Position numbers and translations under genes: made by a program. Source: Candidatus Saccharibacteria bacterium (GTDB lineage Bacteria > Patescibacteriota > Saccharimonadia > Saccharimonadales > Saccharimonadaceae). From it: 64,000 nt of DNA. Location of the stretch: positions 434,001 through 498,000 of the forward strand of contig JAEUQU010000002.1 in the NCBI GenBank assembly GCA_016789455.1, read 5' to 3'. Shown here in pieces: positions 17,795 to 43,725 of this stretch. Positions within the stretch are counted from its first letter, which is position 1, and every line of letters starts with the position of its first letter. The notes under the pieces were generated by a model. The model saw only the letters and a list, made by a program, of their open reading frames with translations, was not told the DNA's origin and did no database searches.

Positions 17795-18376
17795 ATGAAT
17801 GAGGGAAACTTACATAAAGCCAGAATCGTTACCCCCCGAGGTACATTTGAGTTTGAGGGCAGTCAAGAATTTGTTGAGAAGCAGATAGATAAAGTAGTCG
17901 ATATAGAAAAAAATGCACCGGCACCGTCCACACGCGAGCATGATACACCTTTAGCCGAGGAAATCAGCAAACCAAAAGCTAAGACTAAGACTGTTACTGC
18001 AAATGGCTCTCCTAAAAAATCAAGCTCTGAACAGCCTAAAATGTTGCCAAACCTTATTCCTAAGGACCAGATTGCCGGGCTGCGCGAGTTCTATGCTAGT
18101 AAGAGCCCTGATTCCCATCCAGAAACTTTTGCTGTGCTTTCATATTGGCTCAAAGATATTTTATCTGTTGCTGAAGTTTCAATTGATGAGATGTGGACGC
18201 TATATAAAGTGCTTCAAATCAGGGCACCAAAGGTTATGATCCAAGTATTCCGCGACGCTAAATCAAAGAAAGCATATTTCGATATTAGTAAAAGTGGCGG
18301 TAAGTATTACTTGACATCTTTTGGGGAAACATTTGTTGAGTACGACTTGCCCCGCACACCCAAACAGAAGTCATAA
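17795..18376 (+). CDS. Winged-helix-like protein, first gene of a HEPN pair
   Basis: 193 aa, unrecognised by name. Residues 1-40 are a small strand-rich segment (RIVTPRGTFEFEGSQEFVEK), 41-88 a Lys/Ser/Pro/Thr linker, and 95-185 look like a winged helix: LREFYASKSPDSHPETFAVL, then DEMWTLYKVLQIRAPKVM and KYYLTSFGETFVEYDL, where a Gly-Lys wing and the LT-xx-G-E-FVE end are typical of a DNA-binding family common in archaea and CPR. AT-rich codons, unlike the ribosomal genes on both sides. The stop is 2 bases before the next gene, so the two are co-transcribed. Confidence 0.75.
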   Translation: MNEGNLHKARIVTPRGTFEFEGSQEFVEKQIDKVVDIEKNAPAPSTREHDTPLAEEISKPKAKTKTVTANGSPKKSSSEQPKMLPNLIPKDQIAGLREFYASKSPDSHPETFAVLSYWLKDILSVAEVSIDEMWTLYKVLQIRAPKVMIQVFRDAKSKKAYFDISKSGGKYYLTSFGETFVEYDLPRTPKQKS

Positions 18377-18378
18377 TC

Positions 18379-19125
18379 ATGCAAGTTACTACATTCGTAG
18401 ACAAATTCGACGACTTTGTATCTTGGAGCAGAACGCAACAAGTTGACTATATTGCTTATTATCTGACGGCAGATAACGAGACGTCTCTGACGGCAGCAGA
18501 TATCGATGACACAATGCATGACTTACATTTGAAACCGTACCGACGCACAAGACAGTACTTATCTGAGAATGCATCCAGTACTAAAGGTAAGTACGTTAAG
18601 ATTAAATCGGGTGGATACCGATTAACTAAAGCTAAGTATGACGAGATTGATCGCTTAGTTAAGCAAGAGCCCGTAAAGGTATCCATCTCAACTCAGCTCA
18701 CTGATATAGTTAGTCAAGTCAGTGACAACAATGAGAAAAACTTTTTAATTGAGGCGCTTAACTGTTATCGCATCGAAGCTTACAGAGCTTTCATCATTAT
18801 GGTATGGATTGTAGTTATCAATCATTTGCAGATGTATATATTTGCAAATGACTTAGGCGCATTCAACACCGCTTTGACTAAAAGTCCTGACAGAAAAGTT
18901 AAAAAAATTGTTAATTACGATGACTTTTCCGATTTATCAGAAAGTAAGCTAATTGAGCTTGCTAGGTCAGCAAACATAATTTCTAGCGACGTAAGAAAAC
19001 TTCTTGATGAAAAGCTAGGAACTAGAAACAGCGCCGCTCATCCTTCGGGCATCAAAATTGGCGGCCATAAAGCTACTGAGTTTGCTATTGATGTTGTGAA
19101 CAACGTATTATTGAAGTATAAGTAG
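18379..19125 (+). CDS. Winged helix plus HEPN domain protein, likely RNase-type effector
   Basis: 248 aa. Residues about 18-95 repeat the winged-helix pattern of the upstream gene (VDYIAYYLTADNETSLTAAD; YVKIKSGGYRLTKAKYDEID). From about 120 the sequence is helical: FLIEALNCYRIEAYRAFIIM, then TRNSAAHPSGIKIGGHKATE, in which Arg216-x4-His221 is the HEPN Rx4-6H catalytic motif. HEPN domains with it are mostly metal-independent RNases in toxin-antitoxin, abortive infection or CRISPR systems (family knowledge). No Shine-Dalgarno beyond weak purines; translation probably coupled to the gene before. I infer a regulated toxin or defence effector, not proven. Confidence 0.75.
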   Translation: MQVTTFVDKFDDFVSWSRTQQVDYIAYYLTADNETSLTAADIDDTMHDLHLKPYRRTRQYLSENASSTKGKYVKIKSGGYRLTKAKYDEIDRLVKQEPVKVSISTQLTDIVSQVSDNNEKNFLIEALNCYRIEAYRAFIIMVWIVVINHLQMYIFANDLGAFNTALTKSPDRKVKKIVNYDDFSDLSESKLIELARSANIISSDVRKLLDEKLGTRNSAAHPSGIKIGGHKATEFAIDVVNNVLLKYK

Positions 19126-19258: not shown

Positions 19259-19287
19259 TTTACAGCAGATTGTTTTATCAGTATAAT
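19259..19287 (+). promoter_or_regulatory. Promoter of infA and the alpha operon
   Basis: TTTACA (19259-19264), 17-bp spacer, TATAAT (19282-19287). The infA start is 15 bases after the -10 box, so the leader would be about 9 bases. Confidence 0.88.
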
Positions 19288-27852: not shown

Positions 27853-27888
27853 ATTTAAGAAACCGCCTCGTGCGGTTTTTTAAATTGG
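27850..27888 (+). terminator. Terminator of the tRNA pair
   Basis: ccaatttaagaaaccgc paired with gcggttttttaaattgg, 5-base loop. The stem begins at the CCA end of tRNA-Tyr. Confidence 0.85.
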
Positions 27889-28024
27889 TCTTGAGTTGGG
27901 ATTCGATCGCCCGAAGGCGAAGCCTGAGCGGGGCAGAACTGCCAGTGGCAGTTCTGTAAGCAATGCTTGGCCGAGTGGGTGAGCTGTAGCGCCAGCGAAG
28001 GCGAACGTAGAGCGAGCAAGACAA
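27889..28024. other. Non-coding stretch with small hairpins, possible tRNA remnant
   Basis: No supported ORF. Contains a perfect 10-bp hairpin cagaactgcc-agt-ggcagttctg (27934-27956) and smaller cgcc/ggcg arms. Bases from about 27964 (tgcttggccgagtgggtgag) look like the 5' acceptor and D arm of a tRNA and could pair 6 of 7 positions with the cccagca of the repeat at 28025-28045, but no anticodon arm is recognisable. Confidence 0.4.
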
Positions 28025-28045
28025 TTCGACTCCCTCTCCCAGCAC
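28025..28045 (+). repeat. Second copy of the tRNA-Tyr 3' end, possible attachment-site remnant
   Basis: Matches 20 of 21 bases of the tRNA-Tyr T-arm/acceptor end (27830-27850), without CCA. It marks the border between housekeeping sequence and the AT-rich block that follows. Confidence 0.6.
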
Positions 28046-28115
28046 GCGTAGTACTGCCCTGCAATAAAGTAGCTTTATAGGCGTATAATGAACACTACTT
28101 CAGAGGACAAGCAAT

Positions 28116-29684
28116 ATGAATATTACAGACATGGTCACAAGAGGAATGCTGTCGCAGACTGCAGAGAATAAGATTGAGTTCCTGCGCTCGTTGCTAGGTA
28201 TAAATTCATCGATCCTTATAGCAGTCGTGGGTCTGGTGTTTATTCTTTACCAGATCGACCGTTATAACAAATTCAAGAAGATTAACTATTGGTATTTAGT
28301 TACTTACGTTTTAGCTGGCACTACTATAGGACTAGTCATTCCAACGGTCTTCCTGCACAGTGCCGATCCGCATAATAAAAACCCGCTGTACATAGTTGCT
28401 GGGCTATCGGTTTATATTTTAATATTGCTGTCAACCACGTATATGGTACTGGCTCTGCAGTCCATGTCCACAACACGAATTATCAAGAGATTTCGCTACC
28501 GTACTGCTTTAAGCATAAAACTTGAGCGATTTTACGCAAAGACATACAACATCGTTAGCAGATTTTTCTTCAAAGTGACCAAAACCGAAATGAAATTTAA
28601 AGGCAAGTATAAAGAACTCTGGCGTATAGGTACTGGAAGGAATCTTCACCCACTAGCAAAGATGAATAAAGAAACTTGTCTTCAGCATGGCGTCGTAGGG
28701 CAGGAATACGATGTTGCCGAGCTATCGCCGCTAAGCGTTCGTATGGACTTGCTTGTAAGAATGGCGGCAACCGCAGCCGACACTAATGACATAAAGGTAT
28801 TCCGGCAAATTATAGAAAGATACGTCAACCTAATTAAGAAGTCAGATGATCATCAAGAGGAGTATTCAAACGACCTGCAGTCTATTGCCGGAATTCTAAT
28901 ACGAAATAACCGCTACGAGCTATACGACCTGCTGATTGAAGACATAGGCACACTGCTTCTGAAAGATAAAAAGGCACTAAAACAGCTTGATGACAACAAT
29001 GGATATCTATACGCTACGCTCCTGTACCAATATGTTGGTAAGGCGAATGATGCCGAATCAGCGCAGCGGGGCGCAACGCGACTGATGAACCTGCACTTTG
29101 CCATACTCAATGCTAACGACGATGACCAGGCTAGCAACTGGCTAACTACAGGGGACGCCTGCAAGCAATACGAAATTAAGTCTGCTTCAAAAATTGCAGA
29201 GAAGGAACAGCCGTACAGTTTATGGCTAATGTACGAGAAAGCAAATTATTTTACTCATCATGGAGCAGAGGTTAAAGATGTCCGGATTTCTATCGCTTAT
29301 CTGCGTCTTATCTCAAACATAGGGATAATCGGTCGCGTGTACAGATATCATTGTGGCGCAACAGACTGTTCCAAATCTATCTATCAGCATGCATTTGAGA
29401 CTTTCGAGACACTTGGCGAATATTATATAGACCAGTTTGATGAAAAAGATACTGAGCGCTACCTATACGCATATACTGATGCCTTTGAAAAGCTAACCGG
29501 TTATGAAATCAAGTTTGATTTTAGGCAAGGCAAGCGCATCATCAATAGGAATAAGCCTAAAATGATGCACACCTTCAAAATAGGCCCGACTCACGAGACA
29601 TCAGACATGGAATCTATTGACTATAGTAAGCTAAACAAAAAAACACTGCATCGCCTGATGGTTAGCCGTAAAGCTACCTGGTAG
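28116..29684 (+). CDS. Large membrane protein of unknown function
   Basis: 522 aa. Three hydrophobic helices near the N terminus (about 31-47, 58-80, 91-115), then some 400 cytosolic residues that look helical, with no motif I recognise. TATAAT at 28084-28089; AGAGGA 9 bases before the ATG. AT-rich, first gene after the tRNA-Tyr repeat. The layout (membrane anchor plus large helical domain) fits a sensor or effector, but nothing in the sequence decides it. Confidence 0.75.
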   Translation: MNITDMVTRGMLSQTAENKIEFLRSLLGINSSILIAVVGLVFILYQIDRYNKFKKINYWYLVTYVLAGTTIGLVIPTVFLHSADPHNKNPLYIVAGLSVYILILLSTTYMVLALQSMSTTRIIKRFRYRTALSIKLERFYAKTYNIVSRFFFKVTKTEMKFKGKYKELWRIGTGRNLHPLAKMNKETCLQHGVVGQEYDVAELSPLSVRMDLLVRMAATAADTNDIKVFRQIIERYVNLIKKSDDHQEEYSNDLQSIAGILIRNNRYELYDLLIEDIGTLLLKDKKALKQLDDNNGYLYATLLYQYVGKANDAESAQRGATRLMNLHFAILNANDDDQASNWLTTGDACKQYEIKSASKIAEKEQPYSLWLMYEKANYFTHHGAEVKDVRISIAYLRLISNIGIIGRVYRYHCGATDCSKSIYQHAFETFETLGEYYIDQFDEKDTERYLYAYTDAFEKLTGYEIKFDFRQGKRIINRNKPKMMHTFKIGPTHETSDMESIDYSKLNKKTLHRLMVSRKATW

Positions 29685-29690
29685 CCATGG

Positions 29691-30023
29691 CTACTTTTTC
29701 GCAAATGGCAGTTTATCTAGTAAGAACTGGCGCTCCTGCTTTAAGCGCTCCAGCTCACGTAAAGGACGCGTCCTAGCGGTCGTCACCATCCGCAGGCGCT
29801 GGTCTTCATTGACTAAATGTCCGGTCGTTCTTGCTGTGATGTCTGAGTCAATACCATCAACCTCGTTTTCCTTAGCCCGAATTGCACGCTCATTTGCAAG
29901 CAACTTACGATAGAGAATAATCTGCCAGATACTGTAGCTAACTAAGGTGACGGTCGCGGCAACCACACTCATAAAAGTCAAGATATCAGTGACGCTGCCG
30001 AGCGTGATTGACAAAGAATGCAT
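29691..30023 (-). CDS. Small membrane protein of unknown function
   Basis: 110 aa. One hydrophobic segment (about 12-36), then a charged coiled-coil-like region (KLLANERAIRAKENEVDGID; LRELERLKQERQFLLDKL). TTTAAT (30030-30035) sits 6 bases before the ATG and TTGTAA 18 bp further, so the mRNA is probably leaderless. Convergent with the 28116 gene, divergent from the 30090 gene. Confidence 0.6.
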   Translation of the reverse strand: MHSLSITLGSVTDILTFMSVVAATVTLVSYSIWQIILYRKLLANERAIRAKENEVDGIDSDITARTTGHLVNEDQRLRMVTTARTRPLRELERLKQERQFLLDKLPFAKK

Positions 30024-30029
30024 AAGACT

Positions 30030-30060
30030 ATTAAACAGTACTCGATCGGTAGGTTACAAT
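30030..30060. promoter_or_regulatory. Overlapping divergent promoters
   Basis: Minus strand: TTGTAA (30054-30059), 18 bp, TTTAAT (30030-30035). Plus strand: TTAAAC (30031-30036), 18 bp, TACAAT (30055-30060). The boxes of one promoter lie on those of the other, so only one may fire at a time. Confidence 0.6.
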
Positions 30061-30089
30061 AGCCACACAAGGTTATTGAAAGGAGCGCC

Positions 30090-30821
30090 ATGGATATCCT
30101 CTGGTTTTATATTTCGGCCGACGACAAGGATTTTTGGGCCGGCGTAATCGGCACTATAGTTAGCAACTTGGTGACCGTGCTGGGTATCTTTATAGCCGCC
30201 TGGCTTGCACACCGGCATGAACGGCGCAAAACAGAGAATGAAAAGCTGGCAGTTTACTCACGGGCATGCCTGAGGGCTGAAGCCGACCTTAATAACCTCC
30301 TAACTATGCTTTACGCCAATGTCAGACTGCTACAGGCGTGTACGCAGCATTTGGCCGACGGAGCCGCCATGGCTAACCTTCCACGCGTGACGCCTATTAA
30401 CCGTGAGCTATTTGCCGAATTTAGAAACACCGAGTTGATTAATACATGGCTGAGCCTCTACCAGGCGAACAGCTTAGTCAACAATCTCGTAGAGGATTAC
30501 CGGCAATACTATGCAAGAGTGACCGACGAGGTCCATACAATGCTGTTAAATGGTGAAAAACCAGAAGCCAAGGTAATCCAGGATGACTATCGGACTCTGC
30601 AAGGGTTTGGTGGTGCGGTGGGCCGCGCCACCGAGGGATGCATCGAGCGTGCCTTTGATACTTACGCTCTCATCTCGGTCCATGCAAATGATGGCGAAAT
30701 GAGATTCAAGCGGTTTAAAAAACTGTACGAGTTCCGTGCAACAGAAGCGGACCTCGAAGCCGAGCGTGCCAAGCTGGTTAAGCAATTTAGCCCGGATGAC
30801 ATGTTCCTGGACGTCAAATAG
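30090..30821 (+). CDS. Membrane-anchored protein of unknown function
   Basis: 243 aa. One membrane helix at about 16-42 (WAGVIGTIVSNLVTVLGIFI), then a basic stretch (HRHERRKTENEK) and a helical cytosolic domain with no recognised motif. AAAGGAG lies 6 bases before the ATG. Short hairpin with gccgga/tccggc arms follows the stop (about 30824-30846). Part of the same accessory block. Confidence 0.7.
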   Translation: MDILWFYISADDKDFWAGVIGTIVSNLVTVLGIFIAAWLAHRHERRKTENEKLAVYSRACLRAEADLNNLLTMLYANVRLLQACTQHLADGAAMANLPRVTPINRELFAEFRNTELINTWLSLYQANSLVNNLVEDYRQYYARVTDEVHTMLLNGEKPEAKVIQDDYRTLQGFGGAVGRATEGCIERAFDTYALISVHANDGEMRFKRFKKLYEFRATEADLEAERAKLVKQFSPDDMFLDVK

Positions 30822-31001
30822 ATTGCCGGACAATACGAGTAATCCGGCAAACACGAAACTGACGAGTATCATCCCCATGGTGAGCAGCCATCTTAATGCA
30901 TGTATGAACAGTTTGCAACCGTAAGCGCTTGTACGACCAACAGTGATCAGCCTCAAGCTCATTAGTTAATACAACTTTCAAAGATATGTCATAATACAAC
31001 G

Positions 31002-31910
31002 GTGAAAAACACTAGATTTGAATACCTAATAAAAACGCTATCTCGTACTAAACGTAAAGATTACGAAAATTATATTGTTAATGCCATATGGAATAGGCTT
31101 AACGATAGCTCTATCAAGCCCGCATCACAGTGGTTTGTAAAGAACCAGAATGGCTGGCATCTCATAGATCTCTACTTTCCACAAATTAATCTTGGTGTCG
31201 AGTGCGACGAAGGCCACCACAAGAGCAACCAAGCCAATGACGAGCAGCGAGAATTAAAACTTATCGAAGTCCTAAGTGCCGCAAGTAAGCATCCATATCA
31301 GGCTTTGCATATTGACGCCACTTTACCGTTTGAAGATATAGAACTAAAAATAAATGATTGCGTGCGCAAGATAAAGATGCTCGTTAAAGAAAGACGTGAA
31401 GCTAACGATTTTATTGAATGGTCTGACGTAGACACAGTGACATATTTTAAAGATAAACAAATTATACGTTCCAGTGACGATATACTATTTCCAACTATCG
31501 TCAGTGCGGTAAATAGCCTCATGCAGTCTACCAAGAAAGGCTACCAACTGGGATACTTTACTCCTCGAGGATTAGATTCCAAGTATAAGTTTTGGTTTCC
31601 TCAATTGGAAGTTGAAGGTAAGGCTCAAGCACGGGGATGGCATAATATATTGTCCGAAGACGGCAAAACCATCACTGAATATAATGACGACATAAAGGCC
31701 AACATGGTCAATTGGGAGGGCACAAGTCGCAAAGAGTTTTTAGACTATATTCGAGTTACTTTTGCCAAGGTGCGCGACCCCATCACCAATAAGCGCGCTT
31801 ATAAATTTGTCGGCTTATTTGAGTTAAAAGCTATAGACGATGGCGATGTTAGGACTTACTCTAAAATTAGCGATACTTTCAATGCCAGTAGGTACAAGTT
31901 GTCTACTTAA
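31002..31910 (+). CDS. PD-(D/E)XK nuclease, PvuRts1I/AbaSI-like modification-dependent type
   Basis: 302 aa, GTG start. Residues 15-95 read RTKRKDYENYIVNAIWNRL ... WHLIDLYFPQINLGVECDE, with Asp56, Glu67, Asp69, His72-His73 and then Asp80 and Arg83 (NDEQRELKL). This is a Vsr-type nuclease core. The C-terminal part has IRSSDDILFPTIVSAVNSLM, KFWFPQLEVEGKAQARGWHN and SEDGKTITEY, which resembles the SRA-like half of PvuRts1I-family enzymes that cut DNA carrying hydroxymethyl- or glucosyl-hydroxymethylcytosine. A CATAAT box lies 6 bases before the GTG: leaderless. No methylase nearby, as expected for a modification-dependent enzyme. Family assignment is from memory of the pattern. Confidence 0.6.
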   Translation: MKNTRFEYLIKTLSRTKRKDYENYIVNAIWNRLNDSSIKPASQWFVKNQNGWHLIDLYFPQINLGVECDEGHHKSNQANDEQRELKLIEVLSAASKHPYQALHIDATLPFEDIELKINDCVRKIKMLVKERREANDFIEWSDVDTVTYFKDKQIIRSSDDILFPTIVSAVNSLMQSTKKGYQLGYFTPRGLDSKYKFWFPQLEVEGKAQARGWHNILSEDGKTITEYNDDIKANMVNWEGTSRKEFLDYIRVTFAKVRDPITNKRAYKFVGLFELKAIDDGDVRTYSKISDTFNASRYKLST

Positions 31911-32102
31911 TGTTTAAATATTTCGGCAAGTGAAACAAAAAGGCCCAATAAGATCAATGGATATGATAACTGTAAGGTTCTTAAAAAGTAGAGTACAAAA
32001 GAGGTAGTAGGATCCATTTAGTAAGACTTCCACTATTCGAATGAAATTTTTTATCAACGACAATCCTATCCATACTTTTAGTGCTTTTGCTATACTCAAC
32101 CC

Positions 32103-32414
32103 ATGCACCAATACTACGAAGTCCACATCTCCGCCGAAACCCAACCCCAAGCCGACACCATCCTTAATTCATTACTAGAAAAGAAACTTGCCACCGGCGG
32201 CCAATTCATCAAGACCCCATCCCGCTTCCTCTGGAAAGGCGAGATAGAAGAGATGGATTACATCACTATCACCTCATTCACGACTGCCGAGAAGAAAGAG
32301 GCCCTCGTGTAGGATGTCGAGCTAAACACTTCCGAAGAATTCCCCATGATCCGTTTCATCGCCATCGACGTCAACCACAAGCTTGCCTCGTGGATCGAGC
32401 AAACACTAGCATAG
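32103..32414 (+). pseudogene. cutA: CutA-like protein interrupted by an in-frame TAG
   Basis: The frame opens at 32103, meets TAG at 32310-32312 after 69 codons and continues in the same frame for 33 more codons to TAG at 32412. Together about 103 codons, the length of CutA1 divalent-ion tolerance proteins, with LLEKKLATGGQFIKTPSRFL, WKGEIEEMDYITITSF before the stop and the fold's last strand and helix (FPMIRFIAIDVNHKLASWIE) after it. TATACT 6 bases before the ATG indicates a leaderless mRNA. A point mutation, read error or readthrough are all possible. Confidence 0.7.
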
Positions 32415-32428
32415 GACAATCATGTAGT

Positions 32429-32902
32429 ATGTCTGAAAAGATCTTTCACCTCCAACCCTGGAACCCTGCACTTGTGACTACCGCGCACAAAGTAACCCGC
32501 CAAATCCACGCCCTCGCTCCAGAACTTGAAGTCCTCTTCATGGGAGCCGCCGCCTTAGCCCTCCCCGGCAAGAACGACATCGACCTCGACATCCTCTGCG
32601 ACGCCCACGACGTCAGCAAGTACGCAGCACTCCTCGCGCCAGTACTCGGCGAACTCAAAGAACTCAACGACAAGACCGCCTCCTGGTCCACCACCATCGA
32701 CGGTTTCAAAGTGGACGCCATCCTCTCCGACCCGACCATCTCACACGTACCAAAACAACAGGCCATCTTCCACAAGCTCAAGGCCAACGCCAAGCTACGC
32801 GACCACTACCGCCAGCTCAAGGAGTCCTGCGACGGCAAACCCTACAAAGAGTACGAGCAGCACAAGAAAGCCTTCTTCGAGCAGGTATATAATAGTAACT
32901 AG
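32429..32902 (+). CDS. GrpB/UPF0157-like nucleotidyltransferase-fold protein
   Basis: 157 aa from the ATG at 32429. FMGAAALALPGKNDIDLDIL is the nucleotidyltransferase-type G-S/A...D-x-D pattern of the GrpB family (usually IGSTAVPGL...KPIIDI), and the end PKQQAIFHKLKANAKLRDHY matches its FRDYLR helix. No substrate is known for the family. Confidence 0.7.
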   Translation: MSEKIFHLQPWNPALVTTAHKVTRQIHALAPELEVLFMGAAALALPGKNDIDLDILCDAHDVSKYAALLAPVLGELKELNDKTASWSTTIDGFKVDAILSDPTISHVPKQQAIFHKLKANAKLRDHYRQLKESCDGKPYKEYEQHKKAFFEQVYNSN

Positions 32903-32932
32903 AAACCTTAGCGCAGATTCCAGGAGGTAACT

Positions 32933-33325
32933 ATGTTCGAACCAACCAGCACATTCAGCGGCTTCTCCGTTGATGATATCAAAGCGGCAGAAGCATTCTA
33001 CGCCGATACCCTGGGCGTCACCATCGACAGCACAGAGATGGGCCTCGATATCACTCTGCCTGGCGGCGCAAAACTCTTTGTTTACGAGAAAGAGGATCAT
33101 CAGCCTGCTACGTTCACCGTCCTTAACTTCATCGTCGATGACATCGACAAGTCCATCGCAGCCCTCGAAGAAAAAGGCGTCACTTTTGAACACTACGACC
33201 TTGGCAACGGCGCCGTAACTGACGAAAGCGGCGTACTGCGCGGTCTTAGCGCAAACATGGGTCCGGATATCGCCTGGTTCAAGGACCCTGCAGGCAACGT
33301 CCTATCACTCGTACAGACGCAATAG
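32933..33325 (+). CDS. VOC/glyoxalase-superfamily protein
   Basis: 130 aa. beta-alpha-beta-beta-beta units: FSVDDIKAAEAFYADTLGVT, FTVLNFIVDDIDKSIAALEE, and the C-terminal AWFKDPAGNVLSLVQTQ. AGGAGGT 6 bases before the ATG, the best Shine-Dalgarno in this block, with a TATAAT box at 32888-32893. Substrate unknown; a two-domain-fold enzyme or antibiotic-binding protein. Confidence 0.9.
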   Translation: MFEPTSTFSGFSVDDIKAAEAFYADTLGVTIDSTEMGLDITLPGGAKLFVYEKEDHQPATFTVLNFIVDDIDKSIAALEEKGVTFEHYDLGNGAVTDESGVLRGLSANMGPDIAWFKDPAGNVLSLVQTQ

Positions 33326-33333
33326 GGAACAGC

Positions 33334-33567
33334 ATGAGCATTGAGCAGCGCACCCCAGACAAGCAACAGATTAGTATCCTCTGCACAAACTACCGGGGCG
33401 ATACCGCTTGGCGTACCATCATTCCACAGTCCATTTGGTTTGGCGGCACCGAATGGCATCCCGAGAAACAATGGCTGCTCAAGGCGTATGATGTAGAGAA
33501 GGATGCTGAGCGAGACTTTGCGATGAAAGATATCCAACGCTGGAGCGCGACCCAACCTGACGCATAA
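33334..33567 (+). CDS. Small conserved protein, WYL-like strand pattern
   Basis: 77 aa, 8 bases after the VOC gene. NYRGDTAWRTIIPQSIWFGG, EWHPEKQWLLKAYDVEKDAE and FAMKDIQRW make a compact beta barrel pattern seen in small stand-alone proteins and in WYL regulator domains. Function unknown. Confidence 0.75.
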   Translation: MSIEQRTPDKQQISILCTNYRGDTAWRTIIPQSIWFGGTEWHPEKQWLLKAYDVEKDAERDFAMKDIQRWSATQPDA

Positions 33568-33600
33568 GCTTCCGCATGCATTTACTGCTATAATTCGTCC

Positions 33601-34026
33601 ATGCCTTCCATATCACTCGTTACCGGCGTCCTTGTGAAAAATGCTGATAATAAGTTTCTGCTTGTGAAAAAACCGGATGATGTCGGGCCTTACGCTGGCA
33701 CATACCTGCCTCCTGGCGGCGCTGTCGATCAGGATGAACGCATCGACGAGGCCGCCCTGCGCGAGCTATACGAGGAAACCGGCGTCAAAGTGACGAACCT
33801 AAAGCGCGTTTACTTTGATGATGATATCACCGAAAACTGGGCAGGCAAGGTCAAGCACATGGTCGGACTACTTTACACTGCAGACTACGCATCAGGCGAC
33901 CTCACTCCCAAAGAAGGCAACGATGATGATTTTGATGTCGTCGGCTGGTTCTCACTGGAAGAGATGAAACACATGCCCTTATCCCCGCCGATAGAAAAAC
34001 TAATGAGACATCTTGGCTACCTATGA
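33601..34026 (+). CDS. Nudix hydrolase
   Basis: 141 aa. Complete Nudix box: GGAVDQDERIDEAALRELYE followed by ETGVKV (G-x5-E-x7-REL-x-EE-x-G-V). Hydrolyses a nucleoside diphosphate linked to another group; substrate not assignable. TATAAT (33589-33594) lies 6 bases before the ATG with no Shine-Dalgarno: leaderless. Confidence 0.93.
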   Translation: MPSISLVTGVLVKNADNKFLLVKKPDDVGPYAGTYLPPGGAVDQDERIDEAALRELYEETGVKVTNLKRVYFDDDITENWAGKVKHMVGLLYTADYASGDLTPKEGNDDDFDVVGWFSLEEMKHMPLSPPIEKLMRHLGYL

Positions 34027-34274
34027 GCATCGTGCGCAAATGGGATATGGCCGATGAAAGCACTAAGAAGCAGTGCACTGATGAAGTCATCGCCTATATT
34101 GAAGACTTAGAGGGCGCACAGCCGGGCGTCATCGCCGCCCAAGACATCATCGACATCGTCATGCAGCATCTTGGCCCAACGGTATACAATGCCGGCCTGG
34201 CCGACGCGAATAAGCTCATCAAACAGAAGCTCGGTGACATCGAGACCGAACTGGATACGCTGCATCAGCCATAG
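34023..34274 (+). CDS. DUF2164-like small protein
   Basis: 83 aa, start overlaps the Nudix stop (atga). DIIDIVMQHLGPTVYNAGLA with the preceding IAYIEDLEGAQPG matches the DUF2164 pattern (…LGPxxYNxGIxDA…). Helical, soluble, function unknown. Confidence 0.75.
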   Translation: MSIVRKWDMADESTKKQCTDEVIAYIEDLEGAQPGVIAAQDIIDIVMQHLGPTVYNAGLADANKLIKQKLGDIETELDTLHQP

Positions 34275-34294
34275 CAACTGCTATACTTAAACCT

Positions 34295-34711
34295 ATGCTT
34301 GGCAACAACTACCTCCTCTGGGAAAACGACCTTTTCATCGTGTGCACGCCGCACAACCCGCACCTTCCATACAGTGAAGGCCCGATACTCGTTATCAAGA
34401 CCAAGCACGACATCGCCAACGCCTGGCAAGATCCACTCCTGACCGGACACGCTTTTCATCTGGCCGCGCAGGTCTGCCAGGTGGTAGAGAAACTTGGCCT
34501 TGCCCCTTGGTTCAACATCCAGACGAATGGCAATTGGGGCCTGCTGCCCGATGCCACGCCGTTTTTTCATATCTATATATACGGCCGCAACAAAACTGAG
34601 CGCTGGGCCAAACCGATCATCCTACCCGAAGTCCCCAAGGCATACCATAATGACCCCATGCCCGAACCAGATCGAGCAAAATTAGCACAAGCCTTTACGG
34701 AGCTATCGTGA
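34295..34711 (+). CDS. HIT-like protein
   Basis: 138 aa. PILVIKTKHDIANAW and the C-terminal WFNIQTNGNWGLLPDATPFF followed by HIYIYGR occupy the place of the HIT strand and HxHxH loop, but only one His of the triad is seen, so hydrolase activity is doubtful. TATACT (34282-34287) lies 7 bases before the ATG: leaderless. Confidence 0.65.
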   Translation: MLGNNYLLWENDLFIVCTPHNPHLPYSEGPILVIKTKHDIANAWQDPLLTGHAFHLAAQVCQVVEKLGLAPWFNIQTNGNWGLLPDATPFFHIYIYGRNKTERWAKPIILPEVPKAYHNDPMPEPDRAKLAQAFTELS

Positions 34712-35199
34712 AACCGGTTGACTACCGCATAATGCGGAAGACGATTATTACACTCGTGCAAGCTAATCGCCACAAGCTCGTGTCGGTTGATGTTGCAGGT
34801 GATGAATCTATATTTGCATTTGAGGGCAAGCACTACGTTTGTGAAATTCAAATAGACGGCAATTGGTTCGGCTATGACCTGCAGGTAGAAGATGCAGCCG
34901 GATGTGACTTTGTTGATTATGTCGATGCCCGCCGCATGAATGATAAGCGTCGTACAAAGGAAGAACTTAGAGTTTACGAGGAGATGCTTAATACAGTAAG
35001 AAAGTTACTGAACGGCGATATATATTACTTAGCAAACCCCAATTGTTCTTATGTTGCTACTAAAAATAATGATGGCACTTTTGATGTAAGCTATTGGGAG
35101 CTAAAAATGTTTTTGTTTTATCCGTATAGCTCTGGCTGGAGTAATCGAACGTTTAGTAAAGACGAGTTCGACAAGTTGCACTTGAAAGTTTTAGACTGA
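34708..35199 (+). CDS. Unrecognised 163-aa protein
   Basis: GTG start overlaps the previous stop. Alternating strands (LVSVDVAGDESIFAFEGKHY, GNWFGYDLQVEDAAG), a charged helix (NDKRRTKEELRVYEEMLNTV) and an aromatic C-terminal part (SYWELKMFLFYPYSSGWSNR). No family recognised. AT-rich in its second half. Confidence 0.6.
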   Translation: MKPVDYRIMRKTIITLVQANRHKLVSVDVAGDESIFAFEGKHYVCEIQIDGNWFGYDLQVEDAAGCDFVDYVDARRMNDKRRTKEELRVYEEMLNTVRKLLNGDIYYLANPNCSYVATKNNDGTFDVSYWELKMFLFYPYSSGWSNRTFSKDEFDKLHLKVLD

Positions 35200-35287
35200 C
35201 AAATTTGTAGCATAGGAGTAACTTGGCTAGGTAGTTTTGGTTTCAATGTACTCAATCATGGTATTATTGAAGTAAGAGTTGCAGAAA

Positions 35288-36427
35288 ATGAAAAAATCCA
35301 AAACCCCTCGTCTCACCCTCATCTTAAGCATTGCCACCGGCCTGCTCATACTCCTCGCCGGCATCTTCGTCTACCTCACCCTCGCCGCCGGCCCCTCCGC
35401 CAACCGCGAAGCCGAAGACGCCACCCCGGACGAATTCGCTAAGGTCATCAGCGACCCCGCCGCCAGCAACTCCGAAGCCCTGCAGTTCCTCGGCCAATCC
35501 ACCACGCCCGACGACGGCAATTTTGAGACCGTCAACGTCAGCGACGCCACCAGCCTGCAGACCGCCCTGGATAACGCCCAGCCCGGCCAACACATCGTCA
35601 TGGCCGACGGCTCCTATGGCGGCAAGTTCACCATCACCAAGCCCGCCGCCGCCGATAAGCCCATCAAGCTCAGCGGCAGCCGCGGCGCCATCATCGACGG
35701 GGGCGATCTGAACAGCGGCTATGCATTGTACCTCGGTAACGCCGACTACTGGCACCTGGAAGGCTTTACCATCACCAACCGCGAGAAGGGCCTGATGGCC
35801 GATGACATTGATTTCACCACCATTAAAGGCCTGTATGTCCACACCATCGGCAACGAAGCCATCCATATCCGCTCCAACTCCTCCGACAACACCATCGACG
35901 GCAATGAGATCACCAACACCGGCTTGACCAACATCGAGTTCGGCGAAGGCATCTACGTAGGATCTGCCAACAACAACTGGGGCACCACCTCGGTCGGCGG
36001 CACCGTCACCATTCCCACGCCGGACAAGTCCGACAACAACAAGCTCATCAATAACAATATCTACAAGACCGGCGGTGAGTCCATGGACATCAAGGAGGGC
36101 ACCACCGGCGGGCTCATCAAAGGCAACACGTTCGACGGCGCCGAGATGGGCGGCCCCTACGCCGATTCCTGGATCGACATGAAGGGCAACGGCTGGACCA
36201 TCGAGGGTAATAAGGGCAAGAACGCCAAGGCCGATGCCTTCCAGGTCCACGCCAACAGCATCGAAGGGGAGTGGGGCCACGATAATATTTTTACCGGCAA
36301 CATCATCGAATCGGGCGTGCCTGGCTACGGCTTCAATATCGGCAGTGCCAGTGGCAACACGGTCAAATGTGACAATCAGGCACCGGGTGCGGCCAAGGGC
36401 CTGAGCGACATCGAGTGTACGCCGTAA
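35288..36427 (+). CDS. Anchored right-handed beta-helix protein, PL6/NosD-like
   Basis: 379 aa from the ATG at 35288. Membrane anchor at about 8-32 (LTLILSIATGLLILLAGIFV), Ala/Pro linker, then a parallel beta helix: LQTALDNAQPGQHIVMADGS, GFTITNREKGLMADDIDFTT, IHIRSNSSDNTIDGNEITNT, IKGNTFDGAEMG, NIIESGVPGYGFNIGSASGN. The start resembles the first turns of PL6 polysaccharide lyases, but no catalytic Lys/Arg pair can be placed. It faces outward; a carbohydrate-binding or -cleaving role is inferred. Confidence 0.8.
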   Translation: MKKSKTPRLTLILSIATGLLILLAGIFVYLTLAAGPSANREAEDATPDEFAKVISDPAASNSEALQFLGQSTTPDDGNFETVNVSDATSLQTALDNAQPGQHIVMADGSYGGKFTITKPAAADKPIKLSGSRGAIIDGGDLNSGYALYLGNADYWHLEGFTITNREKGLMADDIDFTTIKGLYVHTIGNEAIHIRSNSSDNTIDGNEITNTGLTNIEFGEGIYVGSANNNWGTTSVGGTVTIPTPDKSDNNKLINNNIYKTGGESMDIKEGTTGGLIKGNTFDGAEMGGPYADSWIDMKGNGWTIEGNKGKNAKADAFQVHANSIEGEWGHDNIFTGNIIESGVPGYGFNIGSASGNTVKCDNQAPGAAKGLSDIECTP

Positions 36428-41847: not shown

Positions 41848-43061
41848 GCTGTAGCTCCGACGGGGGCTAAACCGTGATAAATTGCTTTGAACTGTCCGGC
41901 AGCCTTCTTCCAGGACATGTGGTTGAACTCGTGGGTGACCATGTCTTTGAGGGTGCATTGCAGCGCATCATGGCGGGCGACGGACACTATCTGCGAAGCA
42001 AAGGTCTCAATATCCCAGAAGTCGAACTTCAGGATGTTGTGCAGCACCTCGGCGGCACCTGACTGCTTGGATATGAGCAGGGCATTGTTGTGGCCGGCGG
42101 CCTCGAGCGCTACCAGCCCGAACGGCTCGCTGACCGAGGGCATGACAAAGATATCACCAATGTCATAGACATCGCGCCAGGCTTTGCCGCGGACGAAGCC
42201 GGTGAAGATGATGTTCTCGGAGATACCCAGCTCGGCAGAGCGCAGCAGCAGCTCGTCGCGGAGCTCGCCGGAACCGGCCAGCAGGAACAGCAGCTTCGGC
42301 TCCTGCTCGACGGCACGCTGAGCGGCCTCCAGCAGGTAGCGCAGGCCTTTTTGGACCGTCAGGCGGCCAACGCTGACGACGACGGTATAGCCACGTTGTT
42401 TCATCTGGGCGAGGTAGCGGTAGGTATTATCAGTGCCAAGCGGCTCGTAATCATCGATGTTGATGCTGTTGTGGACGACCTCCACCTTATCGGCGGGAAT
42501 GCCATACTCGCGGACGATGATGTCGCGGGTAATCTTGCTGACGGCGATGATCTTGTCGGCCATCATCAGGCCGTTGTATTCGATGTCATGCACCAGCGGG
42601 TTGCCATGATGTTCGCCGGAGCGGTCAAATTCGGTAGCGTGCACGTGGGCCACCAGCGGCTTGCCGGTGATTTCTTTGGCACGGATAGCAGCCTCAAAGG
42701 TCAGCCAGTCGTGGGCGTGGATCACATCGAGTTCCTGCTTCTTCACCATCTTCTCGACATGCTTGACATAGCGCATCTGCTGGGCGCGCAGGGTGCCGGG
42801 GATGCCGTGGTCACAGCTCTCAGCTTCGGTGCAGGTGTAGCAATGGCTGTCGTAAGCGCCCGGCAACATCAGCTGTTGCGGTGTCGCGTTGACGGCGCTG
42901 TGCACGGTCATGAAATCAATGTCGTGTTCCGCTGTGTACGGCACGACAAAATCAATGGACACGCCCTCCATGGCCAATTGCTTGGACATGTGATAACACG
43001 CCACTCCCAACCCACCGCTATTATGCGGCGGCAATTCCCACCCTAGCATTAAAATTTTCAT
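41844..43061 (-). CDS. GT4/GT5-type glycosyltransferase, glycogen synthase-like
   Basis: 405 aa. MKILMLGWELPPHNSGGLGV (the KxGG-like N-terminal loop), DVIHAHDWLTFEAAIRAKEI, KVEVVHNSINIDDYEP, VVSVGRLTVQKGLRYLLEAA and, after a sequencing of sugar-nucleotide residues, VMPSVSEPFGLVALEAAGHN (the E-x7-E motif). GT-B fold. First gene of a four-gene minus-strand operon with GH57 and GH15 enzymes, so it most likely builds an alpha-glucan store that the others trim. Confidence 0.88.
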   Translation of the reverse strand: MKILMLGWELPPHNSGGLGVACYHMSKQLAMEGVSIDFVVPYTAEHDIDFMTVHSAVNATPQQLMLPGAYDSHCYTCTEAESCDHGIPGTLRAQQMRYVKHVEKMVKKQELDVIHAHDWLTFEAAIRAKEITGKPLVAHVHATEFDRSGEHHGNPLVHDIEYNGLMMADKIIAVSKITRDIIVREYGIPADKVEVVHNSINIDDYEPLGTDNTYRYLAQMKQRGYTVVVSVGRLTVQKGLRYLLEAAQRAVEQEPKLLFLLAGSGELRDELLLRSAELGISENIIFTGFVRGKAWRDVYDIGDIFVMPSVSEPFGLVALEAAGHNNALLISKQSGAAEVLHNILKFDFWDIETFASQIVSVARHDALQCTLKDMVTHEFNHMSWKKAAGQFKAIYHGLAPVGATA

Positions 43062-43113
43062 GCGTCCCCGAAAGTCCCTGTATTGGTCCGAATGTTGGTT
43101 ATGCTTTTACTCC

Positions 43114-43142
43114 ATTGTACGAGTTCTTGATTTCCAATACAA
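43114..43142 (-). promoter_or_regulatory. Promoter of the alpha-glucan operon
   Basis: On the minus strand TTGTAT (43137-43142), 17-bp spacer, TACAAT (43114-43119). Confidence 0.7.
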
Positions 43143-43155
43143 CTCTATATTATTT

Positions 43156-43184
43156 CTTACTCTAGTTTATAGTATCGCTATAAT
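43156..43184 (+). promoter_or_regulatory. Leaderless-type promoter of the 43192 gene
   Basis: CTTACT (43156-43161), 17-bp spacer, TATAAT (43179-43184); ATG at 43192 follows 7 bases later. Confidence 0.65.
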
Positions 43185-43191
43185 AATGAGT

Positions 43192-43725
43192 ATGGAAACA
43201 GCTACAAAAGAAGAGGCTTGGCAAAAAGCAGTTAAACAAGTTCTTGCGATACAGGATAAGCTAGGCATGCCGATCGATAAAGAAATTACCGAGGCGGTAG
43301 CAGCTTTAAGATTGCATGGGTTTAACACTATAAGCTCTTGCGGAGGTCATGTTGCCAGGAACACAGGAGGCCCTTATGTGCTTTTTGAGTCACAGTTAGC
43401 ACTTCACCATGCACAAGAAGCAAGAAAGTTAGTGGATCATAAGCAAAAATATTTAGCCCTCCGCAAAAAGGCAAAAGACGCTTCGGCGCTGGAAATCAAC
43501 AAATTGTTAGTACTGTTAGAAAACTTTTATGCAAACAGGCAGGTTGCGTACAGACAACAAATAGTAGTGCAATACATGCCACTGTCAATTTATAGCCTGC
43601 ACATAGTAGGGGCAGAGGCTATGGAAACTGTTTACGGGGTGTATAAATCCGCCACACTGCAGCTTTACCAAAAAGAGTTTGCCGATTTTTCCGAATACCT
43701 TAAAAAAGAGTTTTTTGCGAAGTGA
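43192..43725 (+). CDS. Unrecognised 177-aa protein
   Basis: Start set at 43192 because the -10 box ends 7 bases earlier; upstream in-frame ATGs fall inside the promoter. Helical protein with RLHGFNTISSCGGHVARNTG near residue 45, then long charged helices (HHAQEARKLVDHKQKYLALR). Cys and two His around the SSCGGH motif might bind a metal. No signal or membrane segment; no family recognised. AT-rich. Confidence 0.65.
   Translation: METATKEEAWQKAVKQVLAIQDKLGMPIDKEITEAVAALRLHGFNTISSCGGHVARNTGGPYVLFESQLALHHAQEARKLVDHKQKYLALRKKAKDASALEINKLLVLLENFYANRQVAYRQQIVVQYMPLSIYSLHIVGAEAMETVYGVYKSATLQLYQKEFADFSEYLKKEFFAK

Follow-up and report, generated by a model that had tools for sequence, protein, structure and literature searches.

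Does a gene of 302 codons in a small saccharibacterial genome encode an enzyme of the PvuRts1I/AbaSI type, directed against phage DNA with modified cytosines, and, if so, does it read the same bases as its characterised relatives? The gene lies in a window of 64,000 nucleotides (the whole stretch of DNA analysed, whose numbering is used below unless another locus is named), and is present in the genome as a single copy. A preliminary description had placed it at 31002-31910, exactly the boundaries that we find:

31002-31910, + strand: PvuRts1I/AbaSI-family endonuclease gene, 302 aa, GTG start, matching PF21598 and PF18491, mREase_II and PDB sequences
31020-31367, + strand: N-terminal variant PD-(D/E)XK nuclease domain (PF21598, residues 7-122)
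31446-31883, + strand: C-terminal SRA domain (PF18491, residues 149-294)
30990-30995, + strand: candidate -10 hexamer CATAAT, ending six bases before the GTG; the promoter scan was not above chance

No ribosome-binding site is visible ahead of the GTG, and this, together with the position of the hexamer, means that the message may be leaderless.

The protein contains exactly two Pfam domains, PF21598 (PvuRts1I-like_N; E 2.4e-31, 109 bits, cut-off 27) and PF18491 (SRA; E 1.9e-28, 99.7 bits, cut-off 30.2), each 70-80 bits above its curated cut-off. Both mREase_II models of PADLOC cover residues 5-294 (5.2e-54 and 7e-50), and a phmmer search of PDB sequences, taken up to E = 10, returned AbaSI (3.9e-27) and PvuRts1I (2.9e-19) and nothing else; NCBIfam gave no match. 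By all three sources the protein has the architecture of PvuRts1I and AbaSI, nuclease then SRA in one chain of about 290-320 aa, and their agreement is far above chance level. An AlphaFold2 model (monomer, six rows) is of middling confidence, with a mean pLDDT of 67.5 and a pTM of 0.46. Submitted to Foldseek, it gave AbaSI and PvuRts1I at the top (E 1e-15 to 1e-18) and as sole fold matches at E <= 0.001, with TM-scores of 0.36-0.38; such low values probably reflect an unreliable placement of the two domains relative to each other, and we therefore use this result as supporting evidence only.

The residues singled out in the preliminary description are all at their positions: D56, E67-C-D69, H72-H73, W198-F-P-x-L202, W213-x-N215, S218-x-D220 and I224-x-E226. 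PvuRts1I-type nuclease domains have a variant PD-(D/E)XK fold resembling Vsr (PMC4157451, PMC4027163). In PvuRts1I, mutating E20, D57, E71 or K17 removes or weakens cleavage (PMC4027163), mutations of D57, L58, P61, E68, D70, E71 and H74 abolish or weaken it, D70A retaining some activity (PMC4157451), and the SRA pocket requires W215 and E228 (PMC4157451, PMC4027163). In our alignment PvuRts1I K17, E20, D57, L58, P61, E68, D70, E71 and H74 are all identical in the 302-aa nuclease, as K19, E22, D56, L57, P60, E67, D69, E70 and H73, while the pocket residues W205, P207, W215, N217 and E228 correspond to W198, P200, W213, N215 and E226. The proposed PvuRts1I/AbaSI-like identity is thus borne out along the whole length of the protein, by profile and PDB-sequence matches and by these residues. 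The C-terminal domain is indeed SRA-like, in its 99.7-bit match over residues 149-294 and its five pocket residues; the core first called Vsr-type does resemble Vsr, and is more precisely this variant PD-(D/E)XK fold.

Family membership is as certain as sequence can make it, and the protein is very probably a 5hmC/5ghmC-dependent, phage-restricting enzyme. Our preferred reading, which we consider likely, is that of a modification-dependent restriction endonuclease (Type IV / IIM-like) of the PvuRts1I family that destroys modified-cytosine phage DNA. By analogy with the characterised enzymes, two subunits would pair through their N-terminal nuclease domains, and each C-terminal SRA domain would flip a 5-hydroxymethyl- or glucosyl-hydroxymethylcytosine into the W198/W213 pocket, where N215 and E226 would read it; the nuclease domains would then cleave at a distance of about 11-13 nt, in the interval between a pair of modified bases spaced by about 22 bp. 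Phage DNA entering with modified cytosines would be destroyed, and host C and 5mC spared. If active, the nuclease would give an ultrasmall episymbiont an enzyme dedicated to fighting modified phages, and would imply that modified-cytosine phages reach Saccharibacteria, or DNA that they take up. We know of no hmC-modified phage of Saccharibacteria, nor of direct data on modified-cytosine phages reaching them. This weighs against the preferred reading, as do the low identity to the characterised enzymes, the longer rim loop, the scarcity of known defence genes around the nuclease and the middling confidence of the model (see above and below).

The host genome comprises 1.44 Mb in 2 contigs and is 96% complete; genomes of the class are mostly 0.5-1.3 Mb. 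In its spc operon rpsE is separated from rplO by 4 bp and rpmD (L30) is missing from this place; absence of L30 is a CPR trait. Its 16S gene matches primer TM7-1177R exactly and primers TM7314F and TM7580F with one mismatch each, all three being Saccharibacteria primers (PMC6073563). Both observations agree with the earlier assignment of the window to a CPR genome, and from them, in agreement with the genome sizes of the class, the host is a probable saccharibacterium, likely to belong to Saccharimonadia. The genome also holds another defence locus:

L053:60-7450 (G000:C2:1172059-1179449): second defence locus, Mza-like, with Z1, DUF4420, AIPR and C5-cytosine methylase genes

This methylase locus, about 710 kb from the nuclease gene, is followed by a convergent gene for an AspBHI/MspJI-type 5mC-dependent nuclease (PF18062 E 2.8e-64, and Mrr_cat). 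The enzyme had been supposed to act without needing a methylase, which holds for the enzyme itself, but the genome does encode a C5 methylase elsewhere. If active, that methylase puts 5mC on host DNA, and an active 302-aa nuclease must therefore spare 5mC; the substrate order of PvuRts1I-type enzymes is 5ghmC > 5hmC >> 5mC (PMC12707154). We infer that the AspBHI/MspJI-type enzyme and the 302-aa nuclease would cover complementary modifications.

The protein differs from PvuRts1I and AbaSI at the rim of the pocket, from the WFPxL strand to the W-x-N strand:

31605-31640, + strand: pocket-rim loop L202-W213 (LEVEGKAQARGW), 10 residues between L and W

In the alignment this loop has 5 residues in PvuRts1I, AbaSI, the Priestia enzyme, a Streptococcus-phage protein and two viral-contig members, as against 10 in the 302-aa nuclease and its Bifidobacterium minimum homologue and 14 in that of Paenibacillus, the long loops ending A/S-R-G-W. 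Rim residues Y210 and A212 of PvuRts1I tune 5hmC vs 5mC selectivity, which Y210F and A212N alter; Tyr210 is reported to be conserved in the family, but Y210F is active, so that its role is one of tuning and not a requirement (PMC4157451). The Tyr210 position is taken by E203 in the 302-aa nuclease, by an alignment that is ambiguous there (the loop being 5 residues longer), and by F and A in the Priestia and Paenibacillus family members. In a tree of 13 proteins, PvuRts1I, AbaSI and six others, including the Priestia enzyme, form a branch with support 99/98; outside it stand the 302-aa nuclease, its homologues from B. minimum and Paenibacillus, and a further two rows of high divergence. The tree does not resolve the order of this second group, in which the row nearest to the 302-aa nuclease is B. 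minimum. To our knowledge the long-loop branch has no characterised member. By descent a preference for hmC/ghmC would be expected; given the longer loop (10 vs 5), the preference may differ from that of PvuRts1I/AbaSI.

The family is rare around this host. In profile searches the SRA domain exceeded its cut-off in two genomes out of the 393 of the class, and the nuclease domain exceeded its own in two out of the 394 of the family, these being the present genome and one of another genus, G410. The G410 homologue (L017:1042-1944), an open 300-aa frame between a capA-like gene and uvrA, has S, K, L, S and T in place of D57, E68, D70, E71 and H74, so losing the metal-binding residues, and has lost the W215-N217 segment; no cutting by the PvuRts1I mechanism is therefore expected of it, and it is possibly a repurposed DNA-binding protein. 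Two weak matches in other Patescibacteria (L002, L003) look like stand-alone DUF559/Vsr-like frames and the rest score 17-19 bits; a match in G703 is under cut-off (18.8 bits) and one in G491 (L018) has no coherent frame.

The best relative is that of Bifidobacterium minimum LMG 11592 (L009:7989-8878; 51% identity in the best segment), which has the same 10-residue rim loop, ending SRGW, but is split by a frameshift in that assembly, whereas the 302-aa nuclease is intact. The B. minimum gene is itself AT-rich locally (GC 0.45 vs 0.57 in its surroundings), so both genes may stem from a third source. Actinobacteria are the hosts of most cultured Saccharibacteria (PMC10633639), and actinobacterial CRISPR spacers target some of the predicted Saccharibacteria phages as well (PMC10746230). 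A gene taken over from actinobacterial hosts or their mobile elements, or held in common with them, would fit the sequence relationship, but a single actinobacterial sequence at 51% shows neither the direction nor the date of transfer. A scan of genome contigs matched B. minimum and one Prevotella MAG only, and as it relies on exact short peptides, absence from it means little. Viral contigs yielded no relatives when scanned with the single 302-aa protein; scanned with the alignment they gave five loci, and in none of these was a link to CPR visible. In the Prevotella protein (L010:177-1814, 545 aa) an extra N-terminal part of about 260 aa is fused to a PvuRts1I-like nuclease that is intact, while the SRA is degenerate (PF18491 17 bits only).

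The composition of the gene sets it apart from its surroundings, with a GC of 0.397 vs 0.563 for the window, and 909-bp stretches as AT-rich as this occur in two regions of the window only. It lies in the following block:

27853-35278, no strand: block of about 7.4 kb between tRNA-Tyr and a beta-helix-protein gene, absent from the only same-genus genome (G621)
28116-29684, + strand: 522-aa protein with N-terminal hydrophobic stretches, GC 0.42, no family, upstream of the nuclease
30090-30821, + strand: 243-aa protein with an N-terminal hydrophobic stretch, no family, directly upstream of the nuclease

Synteny with G621 ends at the last base of tRNA-Tyr (27852) and restarts at 35740 inside the beta-helix-protein gene, the two edges being about 860 bp apart in G621, which lacks the genes at 28116, 29691 and 30090, the nuclease, a broken cutA, a grpB-like gene and others. 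The cutA-like gene (32103-32410) has an early in-frame stop and an apparent continuation downstream, and is apparently a pseudogene or a sequencing error. With two genomes, absence in G621 does not tell gain here from loss there; composition, lowest in GC at 28046-32102, favours gain of that part, and the nuclease gene is probably foreign and horizontally acquired. Its neighbours suggest no partner: the 522-aa, 110-aa and 243-aa proteins match no family, nothing points to an operon or functional tie with the 243-aa protein, and the block holds no known defence gene beside the nuclease except for a weak NUDIX-type match.

We rejected the idea that the block is a mobile element integrated at the tRNA and carrying att repeats: the repeat at 28025 is part of a small tRNA-tail element, not of the far end of the block, among whose ORFs no integrase was seen. 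The small element, about 150-200 nt, recurs just downstream of tRNA genes (window 27890-28045; L033, L034, L035, L036), one copy having no adjoining tRNA. A common core, a GGAAC..GTTCC-like hairpin (GCTTGGCCGAGYGGGTGAGC..GCGAACGTAGAGCGAGCA), has two copies of the 3' end of the adjoining tRNA as its flanks, the first inverted and the second direct. The arms vary between loci, in keeping with the tRNA found at each: Tyr, Gln-ctg (with a 26-nt exact inverted arm) and Gln-ttg here, Trp in the sister genome. The exact core pattern occurs only in the two genomes of this genus, among 295 of the class, and Rfam gave no family above gathering score except tRNA itself; the element resembles a mini-element that targets tRNA tails, with terminal inverted repeats derived from the target. 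Elsewhere in the window, two AT-rich genes (17795-19125, GC 0.38-0.42) are inserted into the ribosomal-protein (spc/alpha) operon, where they separate secY from the gene at 19270; the second of the two resembles the defence protein PD-T7-3 (E 3e-6) and phrog_27609 (E 1.2e-10). An AT-rich orphan ORF of 221 aa (43060-43725, GC 0.41), flanked by high-GC genes, has no family in Pfam, PADLOC or PHROGs.

The enlarged rim raises an alternative to hmC/ghmC restriction, that of an active PvuRts1I-like nuclease with shifted preference, its loop (10-14 vs 5 residues in the 302-aa nuclease, B. minimum and Paenibacillus) admitting another C5 decoration, or 5mC in some context. The Y210 and A212 positions, apparently not kept and at which Y210F and A212N change PvuRts1I selectivity (PMC4157451), and the place of the protein outside the 99/98 branch speak for such a shift; but the residues contacting the cytosine ring are all identical, and in a genome with its own C5 methylase general cutting at 5mC would be self-harm. 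We judge it unlikely. A more specific version takes these three proteins as a part of the family in which the enlarged rim recognises some cytosine modification different from hmC/ghmC, and has the episymbiont keep the enzyme against phages that also infect its actinobacterial host; it strikes us as quite doubtful. The long-loop branch offers a new enzyme that could be screened at little cost for a change of base selectivity useful in mapping hydroxymethylcytosine.

The gene might instead be inert cargo, recently gained, intact by chance and unexpressed or unselected in this host. Its atypical composition, its want of a known defence partner and the near absence of the family from relatives are compatible with that, as are the frameshift in B. 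minimum and the lost active site in G410; against it, the frame of 302 codons is uninterrupted and has lost none of its catalytic and pocket residues, in a genome of a mere 1.4 Mb, and we hold it to be improbable. That another SRA nuclease family (MspJI/AspBHI-like or SRA-HNH) has been misread as PvuRts1I-like has next to no chance of being right: SRA domains are common to these families and an AspBHI-type enzyme does exist elsewhere in the genome, but the order nuclease-SRA and the specific PF21598 match, with none to PF18062, Mrr_cat or HNH, already refute it.

Of the known enzymes, PvuRts1I itself (plasmid Rts1, Proteus vulgaris) has the same two domains in the same order, with identical catalytic and pocket residues, at 27.6% identity over 275 aligned residues; it differs in its loop (5 vs 10) and in Y210 and A212, which the 302-aa nuclease appears not to have kept. 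AbaSI (Acinetobacter baumannii) is homologous along its full length and is the best fold match, but has a nuclease insertion of about 18 residues that is missing here, and a shorter rim loop; a plasmid-borne Acinetobacter homologue, taken as AbaSI-like, is 29% identical. Overall, identity to the characterised enzymes is only about 28-29%. A Paenibacillus plasmid homologue annotated as AbaSI family (WP_119851377.1; 31% identity) likewise has a long loop, of 14 residues and ending ARGW, with WCPKL instead of WFPxL. The MspJI/AspBHI family also joins an SRA-type reader to a PD-(D/E)XK-type nuclease and is modification-dependent, but its SRA is N-terminal and its Mrr-type nuclease C-terminal, with 5mC and 5hmC as targets (PMC12707154), the opposite of the domain order seen here; neither PF18062 nor PF04471 matches the 302-aa nuclease at E up to 10, nor does the HNH domain of SRA-HNH (TagI-type) enzymes. 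The 302-aa nuclease is an added member of an already well-known enzyme family, rare in its bacterial group.
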